Assembly (NCBI GenBank): GCA_903901915.1
Contig: CAIUSV010000049.1
Location: forward strand, 1 to 64,000
Origin: an uncultured Rhodospirillaceae bacterium
Lineage (GTDB): Bacteria > Pseudomonadota > Alphaproteobacteria > Rhodospirillales > Magnetospirillaceae
Length of the DNA: 64,000 nt
Reading direction: 5' to 3'
Position 1 is the stretch's first letter; every line of letters starts with the position of its first letter. Positions 26,701-35,814 of this stretch are shown piece after piece. Below the pieces are notes generated by a model. That model was not told where the DNA came from. It ran no database searches and was given only the letters and a program-made list of their open reading frames with translations. The translations under genes and the position numbers were made by a program.

Positions 26701-27827
26701 GCGTCCAGCCCCTCCCGTCCATAGCGGGTGCGGGTCAGCGCCAGCACCATGCCCATGCCCAAGGCCAGCGCCACCATGGACGAACCGCCATACGAGATGA
26801 ATGGCAGCGTCATGCCCTTGGCCGGCATCAGCCGCAGTGTCGAGGCCATGTTGACGATGGCCTGAAGGCCGAACTGCACCAGCAGCCCGGCGGTGGCCAG
26901 CACCACGAACAGATTGTCCTCCTTGAGGATGCGCGAGAAGCCGCGCAGCACCACGAAGGCGAACAGCGCCACCACGAACAGGCAGAGCAGGACACCGAAT
27001 TCCTCGCCGCCCACCGCCAGGATGAAATCGGTATGGGCGTCGGGCAGCACCAGCTTGACCCGGCCTTCGCCGGGACCCTTGCCGAACAGGCCGCCGTTCT
27101 TGAGGGCGTTGAGGGCGGTGGTCACCTGATAGCCGCCGTTGCCGGTCGGATCGAGGAACTTGTCCACCCGCGACGAGACGTGGGGGAAGATGTAATAGGC
27201 CGCCACCGCCCCCATGGGCGCCGCCAACCCCAATCCCAGCACGAACACCAGCGGCAGACCGGCCAGGAAGAACTGGGTGCCCCAGATGGCGGTCAGGATG
27301 GCGGTCTGGCCGACGTCGGGCTGGATCAGCAACAAAAGCGCGACCAGGGCAAAAAGCGCGAAGGCGACGAGGCGGCCGGGAAAGCCCGGCTCCAGCCGGG
27401 CCGAGGCGAACATCCAGGCGGACACCACCGCGAACATCGGCTTGACGAATTCGGAAGGCTGGATCGATACCCCGACGATGGTCAGCCAGCGCTTGGCGCC
27501 CTTGACTTCGGCCCCCAGCAGCGGCACCAGCACCAGCAGCGCCACCGCCCCCACCAGGCCGATCACCGCCAGCCGCCGCACCTTACGCGGCGTCAGCAAC
27601 GACACCGCCAGCATGATCGCCAGCGACGGCACCAGGAACATGAACTGGCGCCGGACGAAGTGAAACGACTGCACGCCGATGCGTTCGGCCACCGCCGGGC
27701 TGGCCGCCATGGTCAACAGCGCGCCGACGCCGACCAGCAGAAACAGCGCCGCGATGGTCCAGCGGTCCACCGTCCACCACCAGCGGCCCAGCGTCGAGGT
27801 ATCGGTGCGGCCGAAGGTGATGGTCAT
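26697..27827 (-). CDS. ftsW: SEDS peptidoglycan polymerase FtsW
   Basis: A 376-residue SEDS-family membrane protein with about ten helices, the divisome glycan polymerase that works with FtsI. Conserved blocks are AKRWLTIVGVSIQPSEFVKP, PDAHTDFILAVGGEEFG (with the SEDS Asp) and GMTLPFISYGGSSM. The start overlaps, by ATGA, the stop of a 40-codon ORF that separates it from murD. Confidence 0.97.
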   Translation of the reverse strand: MTITFGRTDTSTLGRWWWTVDRWTIAALFLLVGVGALLTMAASPAVAERIGVQSFHFVRRQFMFLVPSLAIMLAVSLLTPRKVRRLAVIGLVGAVALLVLVPLLGAEVKGAKRWLTIVGVSIQPSEFVKPMFAVVSAWMFASARLEPGFPGRLVAFALFALVALLLLIQPDVGQTAILTAIWGTQFFLAGLPLVFVLGLGLAAPMGAVAAYYIFPHVSSRVDKFLDPTGNGGYQVTTALNALKNGGLFGKGPGEGRVKLVLPDAHTDFILAVGGEEFGVLLCLFVVALFAFVVLRGFSRILKEDNLFVVLATAGLLVQFGLQAIVNMASTLRLMPAKGMTLPFISYGGSSMVALALGMGMVLALTRTRYGREGLDA

Positions 27828-27946
27828 TGTTCAGCCCTCAAGCGCCGGGCGTTCGCTCCGCTCACGGGGCGTACCTCCGTGGCGGTTCCCTCGCGGGCCA
27901 CTCCGGGGGCCTCGATGGCCCAGGGGCTAAGGATGGGCGCGGCCAT
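27824..27946 (-). CDS. 40-codon coupling ORF within the dcw repeat (murD/ftsW junction)
   Basis: The ORF starts MAAPILSPWAIEAPG and ends ARRLRAEQ. Its ATG overlaps the murD stop (TGATG) and its own stop overlaps the ftsW start (ATGA), so ribosomes could pass murD-ORF-ftsW without release. It is encoded by repeat copy C. No domain is recognised, and it may serve only to keep translation coupled. That the peptide is functional is not shown. Confidence 0.5.
   Translation of the reverse strand: MAAPILSPWAIEAPGVAREGTATEVRPVSGANARRLRAEQ
27834..27946 (-). repeat. dcw junction repeat, copy C (murD/ftsW)
   Basis: On the plus strand the copy opens GCCCTCAAGCGCCGGGCGTT and is nearly identical to copies A and B for about 30 bases (through CGCTCCGCTC). 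It then carries about 15-20 extra bases, then realigns at ACTCCGGGGGCCTCGATGG. The central hairpin GGGCC-TCGAT-GGCCC is at 27907-27921. Confidence 0.75.
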
Positions 27947-29304
27947 CAGGCGAACCCCTTGACCAGATCGCGGAAGGTGTCGCCGCGATGCTCGAACGAT
28001 TTGAACTGATCCCACGAGGCCGAGGCCGGCGACAACAGCACCACCGCACCGGGAATGGCGTCGGACACCGCCAGGCTGCGCGCCGCCGCCACCGCGTTGG
28101 CCAGGGTGCCCGAGCGGGTGTAGCGAACCTTGCCCTCCAGGGTGGCGGCGAAGGCGTCCGTCGCCTCGCCGATCAGGAAGGCGTGTTCGATGCGGCCGAA
28201 ATTCTTCTCCAGCGCGGCGATGCCGCCTTCCTTGGCCTGACCGCCGAGAATCCAGTAGACGTGGTCGTAGCACACCAGCGCCTTTTCAACCGCGTCGGCG
28301 TTGGTGGCCTTGGAATCGTTGATCCAGGCGATGCCGTCGCTGACGGCGACCAACTCCTGGCGGTGGGCGAGGCCGGGGTAACTTTCCAGCGCCTTGACGA
28401 TGGTCTTGGCGTCGATGCCCTCGGCCCGGGCGGCGGCGTAGGCGGCGCAGGCGTTCTGCCAGTTGTGGCGGCCGGGCAGGCGGGGGAAATCCTTCAGGTC
28501 GCAGACCCGCCGCCCTTGGTCCAGCAGCACGCCGTCGGGGGCGGAAACGCCGTTGTCCAGCGCCTTGTCCACCGACACCGGCACCACCCGCAGCCCCAGG
28601 CGCGACAGTTCGGCCGCCATGGCGCGGCAGGGACCGTCATCGACGCCGATCACCACCGCGCCGCCGGGGGTGACCAGATCGAACAGGCGGCGCTTGGCGG
28701 CGATATAGCCCGCCATGCCGCCATGACGGCCGAGATGGTCGGGAGTGATGTTGAGCAGGATGGCGACACCGACCTTCAGGCTTCGCACCAGTTCCAACTG
28801 ATAGGACGACAGTTCCAGCACATAGCGGCCGTCGCCGGGCAGTTCGGGCAGGTCCAGCGCGGCGGTCCCCAGGTTGCCGCCGGCGGCGGCGGCGATGCCG
28901 GCGTGATCCAGCACATGGGCCAGCAGGGTGGTGGTGGTGGATTTGCCGTTGGTGCCGGTCACCGCCAGGACGCGCTGGTCGGGCTTGGCGCGGGCCAGCA
29001 GTTCGATGTCGCACACCACCGGTACCTTGGCGGCGGCGGCCTTCTCGGCCACCGGATGGGGCTGGGGGTGGGTGTGGGGAATGCCGGGGCTCCATACCAC
29101 CAGTTCGGCCTTGGCCAGGTTGATCGCCATGGGATCGCCGATGGGAATGCCGGCCTCGGCGGCGATGCGCCGGGCGCCCTCGTTGTCGTCCCACGCCATC
29201 ACCCCGGCGCCGCTGGCGAGCAGGGCCTTGGCGGTGGCGGTGCCGGAGCGGCCCAGACCCATCACCGCGACGCGCTTACCCTTGAGGAAAGAGACCGGGA
29301 TCAT
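27946..29304 (-). CDS. murD: UDP-N-acetylmuramoylalanine-D-glutamate ligase MurD
   Basis: A 452-residue Mur ligase adding D-Glu. The N-terminal MGLGRSGTATAKAL is a nucleotide-sugar binding site, VTGTNGKSTTTTL is the ATP P-loop, and NDSKATNADAVEKAL and GGQAKEGG are further MurD blocks. It starts eight bases after the mraY stop. Its stop overlaps the small ORF in repeat copy C. Confidence 0.97.
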   Translation of the reverse strand: MIPVSFLKGKRVAVMGLGRSGTATAKALLASGAGVMAWDDNEGARRIAAEAGIPIGDPMAINLAKAELVVWSPGIPHTHPQPHPVAEKAAAAKVPVVCDIELLARAKPDQRVLAVTGTNGKSTTTTLLAHVLDHAGIAAAAGGNLGTAALDLPELPGDGRYVLELSSYQLELVRSLKVGVAILLNITPDHLGRHGGMAGYIAAKRRLFDLVTPGGAVVIGVDDGPCRAMAAELSRLGLRVVPVSVDKALDNGVSAPDGVLLDQGRRVCDLKDFPRLPGRHNWQNACAAYAAARAEGIDAKTIVKALESYPGLAHRQELVAVSDGIAWINDSKATNADAVEKALVCYDHVYWILGGQAKEGGIAALEKNFGRIEHAFLIGEATDAFAATLEGKVRYTRSGTLANAVAAARSLAVSDAIPGAVVLLSPASASWDQFKSFEHRGDTFRDLVKGFA

Positions 29305-29311
29305 GATCGCC

Positions 29312-30400
29312 TCACCGCAGCTTCAAGGTGGCAAGACCGGCCAGCGCCAGGATGGTGGCGATGATCCAGAAGCGGATGACCACGGTGGGTTCGGCCCAGC
29401 CCTTTTTTTCAAAGTGATGGTGCAGCGGCGCCATGCGGAACACCCTTTTCCCGGTCAGCTTGAACGAGGCGACCTGGACGATCACCGAGACCGTCTCCAG
29501 CACGAACAGGCCGCCGACGATGCCCAGCACCAGTTCGTGCTTGGTCACCACCGAGATCGCCCCCAGGGCGCCGCCCATGGCGAGGCTGCCGGTGTCGCCC
29601 ATGAACACCATGGCCGGCGGGGCGTTGAACCACAGGAAGCCCAGCCCGGCGCCGACCAGCGCGCCGCAGAACACCGCCAGCTCGCCCGAGCCGCTGACGT
29701 AGTGGAGCTGAAGATAGTTGGCGAAGACGGCGTGGCCGACCACATAGGCGATGATGGCGAACACCCCCGATGCGATCATCACCGGCACGATGGCCAGCCC
29801 GTCGAGGCCGTCGGTCAGGTTCACCGCGTTGCCGGCGCCGACGATGATGAACACCGCGAACGGCAGATAAAGCCAGGACAGTTGCACCAGCACGGTCTTG
29901 AAGAACGGCAGCGCCAGCGCGCCGGCCAGCGGCTCGCGCTGCAGCGCCATCACCCAGGCGGCGGCCAGCAGGGCGATGGCGATTTCGGCCACCAGTTTGG
30001 TCTTGCCCGGCAGTCCCTTGGGATTCTTCTTCGAGACCTTGAGATAGTCGTCGAAGAAGCCGATCAGGCCATAGCCCAACGTCACCAACAGGACGATCCA
30101 GGTGTATTGCGAGCGCAGATCCGCCCACAGCAGGGTCGAGATCGACAGCGCGAACAGAATCAGGATGCCGCCCATGGTGGGCGTACCCTTCTTGGTCAGC
30201 AGATGGCTTTCCGGCCCGTCGGCGCGGATGGGCTGGCCCTGCTTCTGCCACTGGCGCAGCCAGGCGATGACCCGCGGTCCCAGCAGGAACGAGACGATCA
30301 GCGCCGTCAGTACCGCGCCGCCGGTCCTGAAGGTCAGGTACTTGAATAGATTGAAGACGCCGATCTGGTCCGCCAGCGGGTATAGGAGATTGTACAGCAT
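29312..30400 (-). CDS. mraY: Phospho-N-acetylmuramoyl-pentapeptide transferase MraY
   Basis: A 362-residue ten-helix enzyme that forms lipid I from UDP-MurNAc-pentapeptide and undecaprenyl phosphate. The signatures are [21 protein letters not shown] (aspartate pair), [13 protein letters not shown], and the HHHFEKKGW loop near the C-terminus ([13 protein letters not shown]). It lies eight bases after murF and the same distance before murD. Confidence 0.98.
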
Positions 30401-30407
30401 CGCTTTC

Positions 30408-31901
30408 CTACGACCCCTCTGTCAGCGATTGAACCACCCGGCCCATGCGGCTGCCGGCCGAGCCCTTGACCATCACCACGTCGCCGGCCCGGACCGCCCG
30501 TCCCACCAGCGGCGCCAGCGCCTCGGAATTGGCGGCATGGCCGCCCCGGCGGGACTCGGGCAGGGCCCGGAACAGGTTTTCCATCAGCGGGCCGGCGGTG
30601 AACACGGTATCGATACCCCAGCTTTCCACCGCCTCGGCCAAAGTGGCGTGCAGCGCCGCCGAGCGGTCGCCCAGTTCCAGCATGTCGCCCAGCACGGCGA
30701 TGCGCCGACCGCCCGCTTCCGGCCGGGCCGAGGCCAGGGTGGCAAGGGCGGCGCGCATGGAGACCGGCGAGGCGTTGTAGCTTTCGTCGATCAGCAGCAG
30801 GGTGCCGCCATCGACGGCGATGGCTCGGCGCTCGCCCCGGCCCTTGGGGGCGGACATGCCGGCCAGCGCCTCGGCGGCTGCGGCGGCGTCACCCCCCAGC
30901 GCCTGAACGATCAACAGCACCGCCAGCGAATTCATCGCCCAATGCAGGCCGGGGATGCCGATGCGGTACGACATCTCGCGGTCGCGCAGCAGCGTCAGCA
31001 CGGCGGTGGCGTCGGGATCGATGCGGCAATCCATCAGTCTGGCCGACGATTCGATGTGATTGCCGAACGACAGGATGGAGCCCACCGCCGCCGCCCCGGC
31101 CGCCGCCGCCAGCCGGCGGAAGTGGGGGTTGTCGCGCGGCAGCACGACGGTCCCGGCAGGTTCCAGCCCGGCGAAGATCTCGGCCTTGGCGTCGGCGATC
31201 TCGTCGGTGGAGCCGAAGAACTCCATATGCACCGCCTCGACGGTGGTGATGGCCGCCACATGGGGCCGCACCAGCCGGGCAAGCGGCGTCAGTTCGCCGG
31301 CATGGTTCATGCCCAGCTCGAACACGGCGAAGCGGACGTCGCGCGGCATGCGCGCCAGACTGAGCGGCACGCCCCAGTGATTGTTGAAGCTGCCGACGCT
31401 GGCGTGGGTCGGCCCCTGTTGCGACAGCACCAGACGCAGCATCTCCTTGGTGCCGGTCTTGCCGACGCTGCCGGTGACGGCGGCGATGCGCGCCGTGCTG
31501 CGGGCGCGGGCGGCGCGACCCAAATCCTGCAACGCCGCCATGGTGTCCTTGACCAGCACGATCGGCGCGTCGGCGGCGACGTCGGCCGGGCGGCGATGGA
31601 CCAGGGCGGCGGCGGCCCCCGCCGCCAGGGCGGCGGCAACGTGGTCGTGACCGTCGTTGTTGGGGCCTTCCAGGGCGATGAACAGGTCTTCCGGCTGCAC
31701 CGTGCGGCTGTCGATGGAGACCCCGGCCGCCATCCATTCGGGCCCCGAGGCGACGCCTGCGGTGGCGGCGACGGCTTCGGCGGAGGTCCACAGCGGCTTG
31801 GTGCTGATGCCCTCAAGCGCGGGGCGTTTGCTCCGCTCTCTTGGCTCCTCCGTCGACGCTCCGGGGCGCTCGATGCGCCCGCGCTCGCGATGCTCGCTCA
31901 T
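30408..31901 (-). CDS. murF: UDP-MurNAc-tripeptide-D-Ala-D-Ala ligase MurF, with repeat-encoded N-terminal tail
   Basis: A 497-residue Mur ligase adding D-Ala-D-Ala. The ATP loop is [14 protein letters not shown], preceded by [16 protein letters not shown]. The usual MurF N-terminus begins at [10 protein letters not shown] (residue 36). The first 33 or so residues ([14 protein letters not shown]..., charged and Arg/Glu-rich) are encoded by repeat copy B and are absent from ordinary MurF. The ATG at 31901 overlaps the murE stop (ATGA). Translation from inside the element is the simplest reading, as no good start lies at the beginning of the canonical domain. Confidence 0.95.
31809..31901 (-). 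repeat. dcw junction repeat, copy B (murE/murF, in frame)
   Basis: On the plus strand it begins GCCCTCAAGCGCGGGGCGTT and ends at the murF ATG. The hairpin GGGCGC-TCGAT-GCGCCC is at 31864-31880. It aligns along its length with copy A, with one base of length difference, and is read in frame as the N-terminus of MurF. Confidence 0.8.
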
Positions 31902-33352
31902 GACGCCCCCCCGTCGGCCAGCGCGACCGCGTCGCGCGCTTCCACGGCGTCGTCGAACGGCAGCACGGCCGAACCGACGATCTGGCCGCGTTCGTGCCCC
32001 TTGCCGGCGATTACCAGCAGATCGCCCCTTTGCAGGCCGGCGACGGCGGTGCGGATGGCGTCGCGGCGGTCGGCGATTTCGATGCCGCCGGGGCAGGAGC
32101 CGCGCACGGCGGCGCGGATGGCGGCGGGGTCCTCGCCGCGCGGGTTGTCGTCGGTGACGATCATGGCGTCGGCCAGACGGCAGGCGATGGCCCCCATCTG
32201 CGGTCGCTTGCCGGGGTCGCGATCGCCGCCGCAGCCGAACACCACCACCAGCCGGCGGGCGGCATGGGGCTTCAGCGCCTTCAGCACCGTCAGCAGGGCG
32301 TCGGGGGTATGGGCGTAATCGACATAGACCGAGGCGCCGTTGGCCCGTGTCGCCACTTTTTGCAAGCGGCCGGGAACGCCGTCAAGCCGTTCCAGCGCCG
32401 CGACGACCTTATCCCGGTCGGCGCCGACGGCCAGCGCCAGCCCCAGGGCGGCCAGGGCGTTGTAGGCCTGGAACAGCCCGGCCAGCGGCAACTTGACGGT
32501 GACGGCGGCGCCCAATACCTCCAGTCGCAGGGTCTGGCCGGCGGACGAGGGAACCGCCTCGATCAACCGGATGTCGGCGGCGTCGCGGCCATAGCCGATC
32601 ACCTTTATGCCCCGCCGGACGCAGGTCTCGACCACCGTCGCCGCCATGCTGGACTCGGCGTTGACCACGGCGGTCCCGTCCTCGGGCAGCAGTTCGTCGA
32701 ACAGGCGCAGCTTGGCGGCGGCGTAGGCCTCCATGTCGCGGTGGTAGTCCAGGTGGTCGCGGGTGAGGTTGGTGAAGGCGGCCGCCCGCAGCCGGACGCC
32801 GTCGAGGCGATACTGGTCGAGGCCGTGGCTGGACGCCTCCATGCAGGCGTGGCCGACGCCCATGGCTGCCAGCCGGGCCAGCGACTGATGCAGCAGGGCG
32901 GGATCGGGGGTGGTCAGGCCGCCGGTGTTGTCCCAGCCTTCGGCGATGATGCCCAAGGTACCGATGGCGGCGGCCTTCTCGCCCAGCGCGGCCATGATCT
33001 GGCGGTAGAAGCTGGCGGTCGAGGTCTTGCCGTTGGTGCCGGTGACCGCCACCATGGTCGCCGGTTGAAGGCCGTGGAAGGCGGCGGCCATCTTGGCGAA
33101 GCGCCGGCGCGGGTTGGCGTCGGTGACCAGGGCGATGCCGGCGGGCAGGTCCAGGCGGCTACCCTCGGGCGCCAGGATGGCGCTGGCGCCGGCGGCCAGG
33201 GCGGCGGGCACGAAGGCGCGGCCGTCGGCCCGGCTTCCAGGCAGGGCGGCGAACAGGAAGCCGCGCCCGACCGCCCGTGAATCGGCGGTCAGGCCGGTGA
33301 TCTCGACATCGTTGGCGAGGGGCGTTCCCATCAGCTCAGTCAACCGCCGCAA
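31898..33352 (-). CDS. murE: UDP-MurNAc-Ala-Glu-diaminopimelate ligase MurE
   Basis: A 484-residue Mur ligase adding meso-diaminopimelate. The N-terminal VEITGLTADSRAVGRGFLF binds UDP, VTGTNGKTSTASF is the P-loop, and the DAP-specific DDNPRGEDP is present, so the substrate is DAP rather than lysine. The start is a TTG at 33352 inside the end of ftsI (family-like LRRLTELMG); an ATG at 33331 is an alternative. Its stop overlaps murF. Confidence 0.96.
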   Translation of the reverse strand: MRRLTELMGTPLANDVEITGLTADSRAVGRGFLFAALPGSRADGRAFVPAALAAGASAILAPEGSRLDLPAGIALVTDANPRRRFAKMAAAFHGLQPATMVAVTGTNGKTSTASFYRQIMAALGEKAAAIGTLGIIAEGWDNTGGLTTPDPALLHQSLARLAAMGVGHACMEASSHGLDQYRLDGVRLRAAAFTNLTRDHLDYHRDMEAYAAAKLRLFDELLPEDGTAVVNAESSMAATVVETCVRRGIKVIGYGRDAADIRLIEAVPSSAGQTLRLEVLGAAVTVKLPLAGLFQAYNALAALGLALAVGADRDKVVAALERLDGVPGRLQKVATRANGASVYVDYAHTPDALLTVLKALKPHAARRLVVVFGCGGDRDPGKRPQMGAIACRLADAMIVTDDNPRGEDPAAIRAAVRGSCPGGIEIADRRDAIRTAVAGLQRGDLLVIAGKGHERGQIVGSAVLPFDDAVEARDAVALADGGAS

Positions 33353-35096
33353 GTTCCTTGCCCCCCCCGGTGTTGACGATGCCCTTGCCGCCGGGGGAAG
33401 GGGACGGCGGCAGAGTCTTCGGCATCAGGCCCATCAGCGGCGCGATCTGGGCGATCACCCGCCCGGCGGCCGGTGCCGCCGTCCATCCCGCCGTGATGAA
33501 GCCATAGGTCTCCTTGGTCGCCTGCGGCTCGTCGATCATCATCAGCACGGCATAGCGCGGGGCATCGCAGGGAAACACCGCTACGAACGACGACAGCACC
33601 GCCTTCTTGCGATAGCCGCCGTGGCCGACCTTCTCGGCGGTGCCGGTCTTGCCGCCGACCTCGTAGCCGGGGACGTCGGCCTTCTTGCCGGTACCTTCGG
33701 TGACCACCATGCGCATCAGGGCGCGGATTTGTTCCGAGGTCTTGGGCTTGATGATGCGGATGGCGGGGGAGGCGTCGTCGGGGGCGCGGGCCAGCAGGGT
33801 GGGAGAGTGATATTCGCCGCCGTTGACCAGGGTGGCGACGCCCGACAGCAATTGCAGCGGCGTCACCGACAGGCCGTGACCGAAGGCGATGGTGACGGTG
33901 TTGATCTCGCGCCAGGGATTGGGTACCAGCGGCGCTCCCACCTCGGGCAGTTCCACCGCCGGCGGCGCCAGCATGCCGATCTTGGCCATGAAGGCGCGCT
34001 GAGTCTCGGTGCCGGCCTCCAGCGCCATGCGGGCCGAGCCGATGTTGGACGAATGGATCAGGATCTCGGGCACCGTCAGCCAACGATTGAGGGCGTGATC
34101 GTCGTGGATGGTGTGGTTGGCATAGACCAGCGGCCGGGTGGCATCGAAACTGGAGTTGAGGGTGATGCGGCCCGAGTCCAGTGCCATGGCGGTGTTGAAC
34201 AGCTTGAAGGTCGAGCCCATCTCGTAGGCGCCCTTGGTGGCGCGGTTGAACATGGCCGGGTCGGTGGCCGGCGGCGGGTCGTTGGGGTCGAAATCGGGCA
34301 GGCTGACCATGGCCAGCAACTCGCCGGTCCGCACGTCCATCACCATGCCGGTGCCGCCGATGGCGGAGAATTCCTCGACCGAACGGGCCAGTTCGTTGCG
34401 CACGATGGTCTGGATCCGGATATCGACCGACAGTCCCAGCGGTTCGCGGCTTTCCTTCAGGGCGTTGTCGAACCGCCGCTCGATGCCGGCGACCCCCTTG
34501 TTGTCCACGTCGGTCATGCCGACCACATGCGACAGCAGGTTGCCGTGGGGATAGACCCGGCGCTCGCCCTTCTCGAACTGAAGTCCGGGGATGCCCAGCG
34601 CGTTGACGTCGTATTGCTGGCGCGGCGTCAGGTTGCGCTTGAGGTAGACGAACTGGCGGCCCGATCCCAGCCGCTCGGCGGTCTCTTCCAGATCGAGGTC
34701 GGGAAGGACCGCCGTCAGCTTGGCGGCGGCCTGTTCCACATCGACCTTGGCTGCCCTGAGGTCGTCGGGATGGGCGAACAGCGACATGGTAGGAAGCGAC
34801 GATGCCAGCAACACTCCCGAACGGTCGGAGATGTCGGCGCGCTCCATCTCCAACCCGTCGGCGCGGGCCTGGATCGCCGGTCCCGGCTTGGCCGGGCTGA
34901 ACACCGCGACGTTGAGCATGCGAACCGAGATGCCGCCGAAGGCAAGCACGAACACCAGGGCGGTGACCAGCAGGCGGGTACGTCCGGTCTCCAACGCCTG
35001 GACCCGAACGCCGTCGAGCCGCAACGCGGCACCGGCCTGGAGGTCGTCTCCGGCGTGAAAGCCGGGCTGGGGACGGCGGGCGGCGAACAGGCTCAT
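33336..35096 (-). CDS. ftsI: Division-specific transpeptidase FtsI (PBP3)
   Basis: 586 residues from the ATG at 35096 (MSLFAARRPQPG). One membrane helix (about 44-63), a PBP dimerisation domain, then the transpeptidase with Ser295-x2-Lys298 (GSTFK), Ser349-x-Asn351 (HSSNIG) and Lys483-Thr-Gly (GGKTGTAE). It cross-links septal peptidoglycan with FtsW. The open frame runs upstream through repeat copy A, but the ATG overlapping the small upstream ORF is the likely start. It overlaps murE by 17 bases. Confidence 0.96.
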   Translation of the reverse strand: MSLFAARRPQPGFHAGDDLQAGAALRLDGVRVQALETGRTRLLVTALVFVLAFGGISVRMLNVAVFSPAKPGPAIQARADGLEMERADISDRSGVLLASSLPTMSLFAHPDDLRAAKVDVEQAAAKLTAVLPDLDLEETAERLGSGRQFVYLKRNLTPRQQYDVNALGIPGLQFEKGERRVYPHGNLLSHVVGMTDVDNKGVAGIERRFDNALKESREPLGLSVDIRIQTIVRNELARSVEEFSAIGGTGMVMDVRTGELLAMVSLPDFDPNDPPPATDPAMFNRATKGAYEMGSTFKLFNTAMALDSGRITLNSSFDATRPLVYANHTIHDDHALNRWLTVPEILIHSSNIGSARMALEAGTETQRAFMAKIGMLAPPAVELPEVGAPLVPNPWREINTVTIAFGHGLSVTPLQLLSGVATLVNGGEYHSPTLLARAPDDASPAIRIIKPKTSEQIRALMRMVVTEGTGKKADVPGYEVGGKTGTAEKVGHGGYRKKAVLSSFVAVFPCDAPRYAVLMMIDEPQATKETYGFITAGWTAAPAAGRVIAQIAPLMGLMPKTLPPSPSPGGKGIVNTGGGKELAAVD

Positions 35097-35194
35097 GGGG
35101 CGGCCCTCCGGCGCCGGGCGGTCGCTCCGCTCCCTGGGCTCCTTCGCCTCGCTCCGGGACGCTCGACGTGCCCGCGCTTCCTTCGGTCGCTCAT
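35093..35194 (-). CDS. 33-codon coupling ORF within the dcw repeat (ftsL/ftsI junction)
   Basis: The ORF reads [15 protein letters not shown]... and ends RRRAAP. Its ATG overlaps the ftsL stop (ATGA) and its stop overlaps the ftsI ATG (ATGA). Its first half matches the MurF tail encoded by copy B (ERPGA), while a one-base difference shifts the second half out of frame, turning EPRERS-type sequence into an Arg-rich tail. It may act in coupling only. The product is not known. Confidence 0.5.
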   Translation of the reverse strand: MSDRRKRGHVERPGARRRSPGSGATARRRRAAP

Positions 35195-35195
35195 T
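35102..35195 (-). repeat. dcw junction repeat, copy A (ftsL/ftsI)
   Basis: On the plus strand it begins GCCCTCCGGCGCCGGGCGGT and ends just past the ftsL stop. An imperfect hairpin GGGACGC-TCGAC-GTGCCC is at 35156-35173. By eye it is about three-quarters identical to copy B over its length. Confidence 0.8.
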
Positions 35196-35814
35196 GGTCG
35201 GCCTCCCCCTGGGCCAGGGCCGGGGAACGAATGACGATGCTCCGGCCGCCCCGGACTGGGGTGGTGGCCGGAGCGGTCGCCAGCTTCGCCGATGGTGGTG
35301 GCGTGGTGACCGGAGGCGGCGGGGTAGCCTTGGCCATGGTGGTGGTGGTCTTGGGTGGCGTCGGTCGTGGCGCCGGCTTGCCGGTGTCGGCGGGTTTGGG
35401 CTTGGGTTGATTGGCCGCCAGCTTGGTGGGGGCCGGCGGCGGCGTCGGATCGACCGGGCGGGCCGCGGTGACGGGCGGCGACGGGCGTTGCGGACGGGCG
35501 GCGAACGCCACCTGGGAGCCACCGGCGGGCAGGCCGTTCTTCAGCACGCCATCCAGGGTCGCCACCTGGGCCGGCGACACCGGATGCATGCCGAGATGTT
35601 TTTCCGACAGGGCGCGCAGGCGGATGGGATCGTTGAGGTAGCTCCATTCGGCGCGCAGCACATGGATGGTTTCCTGATTGCGCTGGATCTCCCCGGTCAG
35701 TGCCGCCAGCCGCCGTTCCTGGTCCTTGACCTCGTGCTTGACGAAGAACAGGCCGACACCGATGACGGCAGCCAGGCAGGCCCACAGGACGGTTCCCAGG
35801 ATGCCGCGCCTCAT
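35191..35814 (-). CDS. ftsL: Cell division protein FtsL
   Basis: A 207-residue bitopic protein. A short cytoplasmic N-terminus leads to one membrane helix (about 6-25) and a coiled coil ([19 protein letters not shown]...), then the block [17 protein letters not shown] typical of alphaproteobacterial FtsL. The C-terminal half is a long Pro/Thr/Ala-rich tail, longer than in E. coli FtsL (121 residues). It forms the FtsQLB complex that activates FtsWI. The start overlaps the rsmH stop by four bases. Confidence 0.9.

Follow-up and report, generated by a model that had tools for sequence, protein, structure and literature searches.

A MIRU-like structured repeat, probably mobile, that occupies coupled start codons in Alphaproteobacteria

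Introduction

The repetitive extragenic palindromic (REP) sequences and bacterial interspersed mosaic elements (BIMEs), which are palindromic repeats linked to REP-associated tyrosine transposases (RAYTs), are short, GC-rich, hairpin-bearing, dispersed and devoid of a transposase of their own. Rickettsia palindromic elements are palindromic, lie in frame within genes and can be translated. The mycobacterial interspersed repetitive units (MIRUs), whose insertion site is worded DTGA, come closest to the element described here, which occupies three gene junctions of the division and cell wall (dcw) cluster in a 64,000-nt stretch of DNA from an uncultured Rhodospirillaceae bacterium, probably a relative of Magnetospirillum (contig CAIUSV010000049.1, positions 1 to 64,000; called the window below). 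MIRUs are presented in the pertinent part of a review as seemingly mobile, inserting at start codons and carrying an internal open reading frame (ORF) coupled at -4 spacing (PMC12548453, citing Supply et al. 1997). The available portions of two other papers state that the MIRU ORF overlaps its neighbours at both ends, in the same orientation and without dyad symmetry (PMC4473831), and that the MIRUs of the senX3-regX3 spacer are found in M. leprae and the tuberculosis complex only and can drive expression (PMC4213456). In the open-licence literature, we found no account linking Magnetospirillum with MIRUs or with repetitive extragenic palindromic repeats; PMC12548453 was the sole account joining interspersed repeats with translational coupling, and none treated MIRU coupling together with transposition. 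Among the papers matched by the MIRU core sequence, those listed dealt with unrelated subjects.

The three dcw insertions are, with high probability, copies of a small and probably mobile element of the genus that has no transposase of its own, occupies DTGA start codons and rebuilds the coupling between the genes that it separates.

Results

The dcw copies belong to a dispersed family

Copies A (35097..35194, ftsL/ftsI junction), B (31810..31901, murE/murF) and C (27828..27946, murD/ftsW) all lie on the minus strand in a single orientation, as a preliminary description of this DNA had proposed. The window (G000:C49:1-64000) is part of a 4.1 Mb draft genome of 93 contigs (G000), in which a blastn search with another copy as query yielded 42 hits at E<=1, of which 30 fell below 1e-10; the repeat therefore exceeds chance. 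At E<=0.001, the covariance model R1, built from 19 copies of G000, matched 39 times in G000, 15 times in G006, 18 times in G010 and 4 times in G011, and blastn found the repeat in 15 of the 17 genomes of the genus, G003 having one weak match. The proposal of a dispersed repeat family is borne out by these further copies.

Copy A measures 98 nt from the first ATGA to the last base preceding the ftsI ATG and scores 79.2 bits with R1; copy B scores 84.7 bits. Copy C (119 nt) has diverged strongly, with an R1 score of 24.2 bits (E 0.007), and lies outside the 39 genome-wide matches; conservation is good over its final ~42 nt (88% by blastn, E 1.8e-8). The mini-ORF of copy A (35093..35194, minus strand) has 33 codons and a TGA, is open, and shares ATGA overlaps with the ftsL stop and the ftsI start. 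That of copy C (27824..27946, minus strand) has 40 codons and a TGA, with a TGATG overlap with murD and an ATGA overlap with ftsW. Copy B is without the second start codon, ATCAGC standing in its place, and is fused in frame to murF. The MurF proteins of relatives align from residue 30-37 of the window MurF in 15 of 16 genomes, and from residue 52 in one; the first ~31 residues of the window MurF are therefore the element. The tiny ORFs of A and C and the N-terminal MurF tail of B had been noticed before, and all three are confirmed. The three mini-ORF peptides had no match in Pfam, and a search of Rfam with positions 27500-35500 gave no match at E<=1.

The element sits at start codons

Genomic contexts were read in two sets. 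The discovery set comprised 42 sites in four genomes (E<1e-6, arrays merged). The held-out set comprised 40 regions in eight other genomes, taken down the ranked list of model matches and picked before their context was read, the list not being exhausted; it contains the ftsW copy of G005 that was already known (L174), two duplicates (L175, L176) and one region at a contig end (L188). Genes were called, not taken from annotation, by a codon-usage caller trained on 11 genes of the window, which recovers the dcw genes.

The upstream gene was co-oriented with the element at 37 of 39 discovery and 40 of 40 held-out sites, the downstream gene at 38 of 39 and at all 39 held-out sites where one was called. 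A DTGA head was present at 33/42 and 33/40 sites, and the stop of the upstream gene lay within this head in 25/31 and 25/33 cases respectively. By comparison, overlaps of 4 nt were found in 11 of the 50 co-oriented gene pairs of the window and in 24 of 154 pairs from 69 loci, element junctions included. With the sites taken as independent, the enrichment of stops in the head over the window background is significant in both sets (Fisher p 2e-7 for discovery, 1e-6 for held-out). Some heads are starts without an overlapping stop, for example at G000:C89 and at the divergent site G010:558441, so that the common denominator is the start codon.

Reading frame and insert length keep the neighbouring genes linked

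At 24 of the 29 testable discovery sites, the frame that begins in the head ran exactly to the TGA within the downstream ATGA, in two cases via an intermediate ATGA; at four more it was fused in frame to the gene (28/29 linked). In the held-out set, 25 of 33 frames ended exactly at the downstream ATGA and five were fused in frame (30/33 linked). These counts leave out the headless sites (9/42 and 7/40) and three discovery sites that run off contigs; G000:C19:2, a contig-end start with no true head, was dropped from the discovery counts, which would otherwise be 25 and 4 of 30. The placement exactly between a stop and a start with coupling preserved, first noted at the dcw junctions, thus recurs at held-out sites.

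Single-unit inserts had a length of 2 modulo 3 at 20 of 21 discovery and 25 of 25 held-out sites (45/46), the exception being an in-frame fusion, and were open through to the overlap in 19/21 and 24/25 cases. Their lengths were 92, 98, 101, 104, 107, 110, 125, 128 and 140 nt, and 119 nt for copy C. The lengths compensate: the spacer is 9 nt where the element part is 2 modulo 3, and 7, 10 or 13 nt where it is 1 modulo 3, the element tail being read in two frames across the copies. The compensation and the two-frame tail point to a constraint on linkage and argue against a constraint on the peptide; judging from the sequences, the encoded peptide is probably not what is kept.

Filled and empty alleles coexist among relatives

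At murD/ftsW, read in 17 genomes, eight have a plain ATGA overlap, six (G000 included) an insert of the family, and three distant ones a variant or remnants. At ftsL/ftsI, 16 genomes were readable (G014 was not): G000 and G016 are filled, with different variants, and the other 14 are insert-free, 13 with a 4-nt overlap and G013 with a short gap. The murE/murF insert is present in G000 alone among 14 genomes that have separate genes. The genomes G002, G003 and G009 (L078-L080), in which murE and murF form one continuous frame, were left out of this count. At the start of an rluB-like gene, a copy of the family is found in G000 and G006, another variant in G016 and G013, and partial copies in G004, G005 and G012; within the ~230 nt viewed, the other 10 genomes have no insert. 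One further junction also has repeat-free alleles in relatives. The preliminary description had left room for a genome without further copies and for relatives without repeat-free alleles; neither is what was found, in view of the 42 blastn matches in G000 and of the empty alleles at ftsL/ftsI, murE/murF, murD/ftsW and rluB.

On a tree of five concatenated proteins, which has weak nodes (support of 0.11 for the placement of G000), the ftsW inserts are scattered, and empty sister species adjoin G004, G014 and G007. Independent gains are the simplest reading of the scattered filled and empty alleles; precise losses are possible.

Conserved anatomy and covarying hairpins

A typical unit opens with a DTGA that overlaps GAGCGA; a variable mini-stem and hairpin 1 come next, and then a linker close to GGAGCGNAGCGGAGGAGCC, hairpin 2, CGCCCGGCG and GAGGG, usually followed after 7 to 10 nt by the ATG of the downstream gene. 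In copy A, hairpin 1 occupies 35157..35173 (GGGCAC-GTCGA-GCGTCC, with one mismatch and one G-U pair) and hairpin 2 35120..35134 (GGGAGC-GGA-GCGACC, with inner G.A/A.G pairs), both on the minus strand and both predicted from covariation, in 78 and 64 distinct units respectively. The GAGGG of copy A (35104..35108, minus strand), 7 nt 5' of the ftsI ATG, is a presumed ribosome-binding site in view of its sequence and its family-typical spacing, the usual GAGGG-to-ATG distances in the repeat family being 7, 9 or 10 nt. In copy B, hairpin 1 (31864..31880, minus strand; GGGCGC-ATCGA-GCGCCC) is predicted from its sequence and from covariation in the family.

When folded singly, A, B and C showed no significant stability compared with shuffled sequences (z 1.34, -0.38 and -0.67), so that the hairpins are visible in comparative data alone. 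In the R1 alignment of 19 G000 copies, both partners had changed in 7 of the 19 predicted pairs, including two pairs of the mini-stem. Pairing was then scored in 81 distinct units from 11 genomes against 500 shuffles of the partners. Hairpin 1, placeable in 78 units, was 91.9% paired versus 68.8% in shuffles (largest shuffle 77.6%), and hairpin 2, placeable in 64 units, 91.7% versus 69.2% (largest shuffle 75.0%). Partner shuffling leaves the relatedness of the units in place; the diversity of stems is nonetheless large, those at one position differing as widely as GCCTGC/GCAGGC, GGGTTT/AAACCC and GCCGCC/GGCGGC. Hairpin 1 and hairpin 2 both show a recurrent stem class, GGGAGC/GCGACC, which contains tandem G.A pairs.

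Longer or differently built variants with the same CGCCCGGCG..TGAGGG tail were observed at the same type of junction: at the rluB-like junction of G016 and G013 (L321, L325) and at murD/ftsW in G004 and G002 (L073, L078), G002 being an early-branching genome nearly free of main-type copies.

Arrays, distribution and a phage-borne copy

Copies also occur in tandem arrays, the periods of which range from 99 to 134 nt. Contigs C14, C19, C38, C49, C66 and C79 of G000 start or finish within copies or arrays; since the draft assembly breaks inside copies, arrays may exceed their observed length. Some array units (L077/L174, L102, L103) start with ATAAGC or TGGAGC, not ATGAGC, and have a period of 99 nt, so that such an array can be read as a single frame, without a restart at each unit.

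R1 matches at E<=1e-6 were obtained in 29 of 248 genomes drawn from the order: 13 of 15 from the genus, 10 of 22 from the rest of the family and 6 of the remaining 211, the last six all scoring 1.7e-7 or weaker. In a sample of 385 genomes drawn from the class and searched with strict filters, G000 alone scored E<=1e-8, the 384 others giving no match. Among the genomes drawn, strong copies are thus confined to one alphaproteobacterial family. Outside the genus, a co-oriented gene start lies 6 to 9 nt past the tail at 5 of 22 sites, and a sixth (L144) is cut. Weak matches in other genera (L148-L154, L157) end in TGAGGG and lie mostly in spacers away from gene starts; these may perhaps represent another, related repeat of spacers that gave rise to the start-codon type.

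One copy lies between phage tail genes, 3' of a tail-assembly chaperone gene and a short ORF and 5' of a tape-measure gene. It was found in a prophage-like region of three species in two genera (L200, L144, L145) and in one IMG/VR viral contig (L338:9767-9861); its mini-ORF is broken after 16 codons. Being common to three species and a viral contig, this copy suggests that prophages can ferry the element between species.

Discussion

A model for insertion at coupled starts

From the sequences, positions, frames, covariation and alleles, we infer translation of the mini-ORF, mobility of the element and the manner of its insertion. The element would take a DTGA start codon, mostly that of an ATGA stop/start overlap within an operon, and leave a DTGA on each side. 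Between the two lie an open mini-ORF, two covarying hairpins and, close to the end, a GAGGG at ribosome-binding distance of the downstream ATG. Ribosomes finishing the upstream gene could restart on the mini-ORF and again on the downstream gene, a reinitiation made possible by an insert of 2 modulo 3 that is usually without an in-frame stop. With the frame and the ribosome-binding site supplied by the element, the chain of genes would stay translated and the coupling would be rebuilt, not broken; on loss of the second ATG, the mini-ORF would turn into an N-terminal extension of the gene, as in copy B. The preliminary description had offered a choice between an element that spreads only where coupling is kept and one that creates coupling itself. 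Because of the DTGA head, the open 2-modulo-3 frame and the GAGGG before the second ATG, the second option fits better and the first less well.

The element head is repeated at the start of the downstream gene over 18 nt in L037, 27 nt in L034 and 12 nt in L199 (greB-like). A simple long target duplication is unsupported, the gene starts of L037 and L034 being different from those of their orthologues in relatives. There is a hint of recombination via ATGAGCGA microhomology; an alternative reading of two of the three cases is that element sequence has overwritten the gene start.

Several observations weigh against this model. The DTGA head is lacking at 16 of 82 sites (9/42 and 7/40; 17 with the dropped site), one discovery and three held-out sites are unlinked, the called upstream gene reads through the element at G000:C54 and L197, and at the discovery site G000:C68 the genes run against the direction of the element. 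Copies share ancestry, and the sites are not independent. Shuffled interiors are already open in 71.5% of cases, which makes openness alone weak evidence; it is the frame rule that carries weight. Finally, no transposase could be linked to the family in a search limited to Y1 transposases (PF01797), which occur in 4 of the 17 genomes of the genus and not in G000. RAYT mobilisation, considered as a candidate, was rejected on this distribution.

Other explanations

A neutral palindromic repeat of the REP type, or of the type of miniature inverted-repeat transposable elements, could insert anywhere, selection leaving the insertions into overlaps that preserve coupling. The strong hairpins agree with this explanation, insertions within genes would be purged, and many of the weaker model matches in other genera do sit in spacers, off starts. 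It predicts many strong copies in convergent or long spacers, the most tolerant DNA, whereas, of the 39 sites in each set, just one in the discovery set and none in the held-out set has a downstream gene of opposite orientation; moreover, different length classes have in common the frame, the second ATGA and the GAGGG, all of which are part of the element. We consider neutral insertion quite unlikely. It is also unlikely, if a little less so, that the element is kept for a benefit to the host, as a translational tuner, a promoter or an mRNA-stabilising structure between operon genes, since occupancy of single junctions is patchy among close relatives and several junctions hold partial copies only. 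This must be set against the covariation across very different stems and against two seemingly shared sites, judged from flank lengths and bases, not from an alignment (G006/G010, before genes of 432/426 nt; G006/G011, before 1074-nt genes); the relevant part of PMC4213456 also reports promoter activity for MIRUs between senX3 and regX3.

Insertions that add peptide segments to proteins, in the manner of the Rickettsia palindromic elements, would account for copy B and the other in-frame fusions. These make up 9 of 62 testable sites (4/29 and 5/33), every one at a gene start, and two different frames run through the tail; the position data mostly refute this explanation, to which we give hardly any credence. 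Lastly, the identical length rule and coupling could mean that the element is a true MIRU homologue, inherited or transferred between Actinomycetota and Alphaproteobacteria. The best local similarity between the two families is a common stretch of 19 nt (CGAAGCGA..GGAGGAGC, 2 mismatches); in comparisons with two MIRU units, 3 and 5 of 200 shuffles reached its score. Against homology, R1, run on 40 of the at least 117 mycobacterial stretches, detected none of the MIRUs at E<0.01, strict filtering left no match at E<=1e-8 among the 384 other genomes drawn from the class, and unit length and hairpins differ; homology, though possible, seems unlikely. As a tentative proposal, in which we have less than even confidence, self-coupling start-codon elements may have arisen independently in two phyla via a shared DTGA-recognising insertion process, for which single-stranded hairpin DNA, microhomology at ATGAGCGA and phage-borne transfer would be possible routes. 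If this is true, such elements could form a widespread and overlooked class that lengthens operons without breaking their translation.

The rebuilding of coupling by the element, if correct, shifts translational coupling from a property of operons to a target that repeats exploit. Dozens of naturally filled junctions, several with empty alleles and including those of ftsI, murF and ftsW, are available for measuring reinitiation, and the element accounts for short ORFs and N-terminal extensions that automatic annotation could take for genes.

Comparison with known repeats

Like REP sequences and BIMEs, the element is short, GC-rich, hairpin-bearing and dispersed and has no transposase of its own; unlike them, it sits at starts, and the Y1 transposase is absent from 13 of the 17 genomes of the genus, including G000. 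It resembles the Rickettsia palindromic elements in being palindromic and possibly translated, and differs from them in lying between genes, with fusion to a gene in a minority of cases (4/29, 5/33); these elements, once named as the nearest idea, are the poorer comparison. Nor does the earlier view that no named element behaves in this way hold, as mycobacterial MIRUs are described as doing so in the part of the review concerned (PMC12548453).

For the comparison with MIRUs, at least 117 stretches were collected in a genome-wide scan with the MIRU core; the best 80 of them come from Mycobacterium or Mycolicibacterium, except for two actinobacterial metagenome bins. Among 100 MIRU copies flanked on either side by a DTGA, the insert measures 53 nt in 53 copies and is 2 modulo 3 in 67, of which 65 are open to the overlap; the other 33 are off the length rule, some perhaps from taking the nearest DTGA. 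The two ends of MIRUs in the mycobacterial loci L202-L318 are complementary (GCGCCG/CGGCGC, and also the compensated forms GCACCG/CGGTGC and GTGTCG/CGACAC), 73% being paired versus 66% with shuffled partners (largest shuffle 71%; 35 distinct pairs), which sits badly with the absence of dyad symmetry stated in the available portion of PMC4473831. MIRUs were also observed in many more mycobacterial species than the corresponding portion of PMC4213456 gives for the senX3-regX3 type.

The element differs from MIRUs in its host, which belongs to a different phylum (Alphaproteobacteria versus mycobacteria), in its inserts of mostly 98-104 nt versus 53 nt, and in its covarying hairpins, MIRUs being stated, in the same portion of PMC4473831, to be without dyad symmetries. 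By analogy, it works like a mycobacterial MIRU; we do not class it among the MIRUs, because it lacks two of the features stated for them. We regard it as a MIRU-like, structured and probably mobile element of Alphaproteobacteria. MIRUs are treated as mycobacterial in the parts of the cited papers that concern them, and a second family with the same grammar is now found in a different phylum. As in the published MIRU descriptions, so far as these extend, the units are dispersed or in tandem at start codons, co-oriented with both genes, with 4-nt ORF overlaps on both sides. In both families most inserts are 2 modulo 3, and two of the traits by which a MIRU can be recognised are present here: an ORF overlapping its neighbours, and an insertion at DTGA that leaves -4 coupling, as read from filled versus empty alleles.

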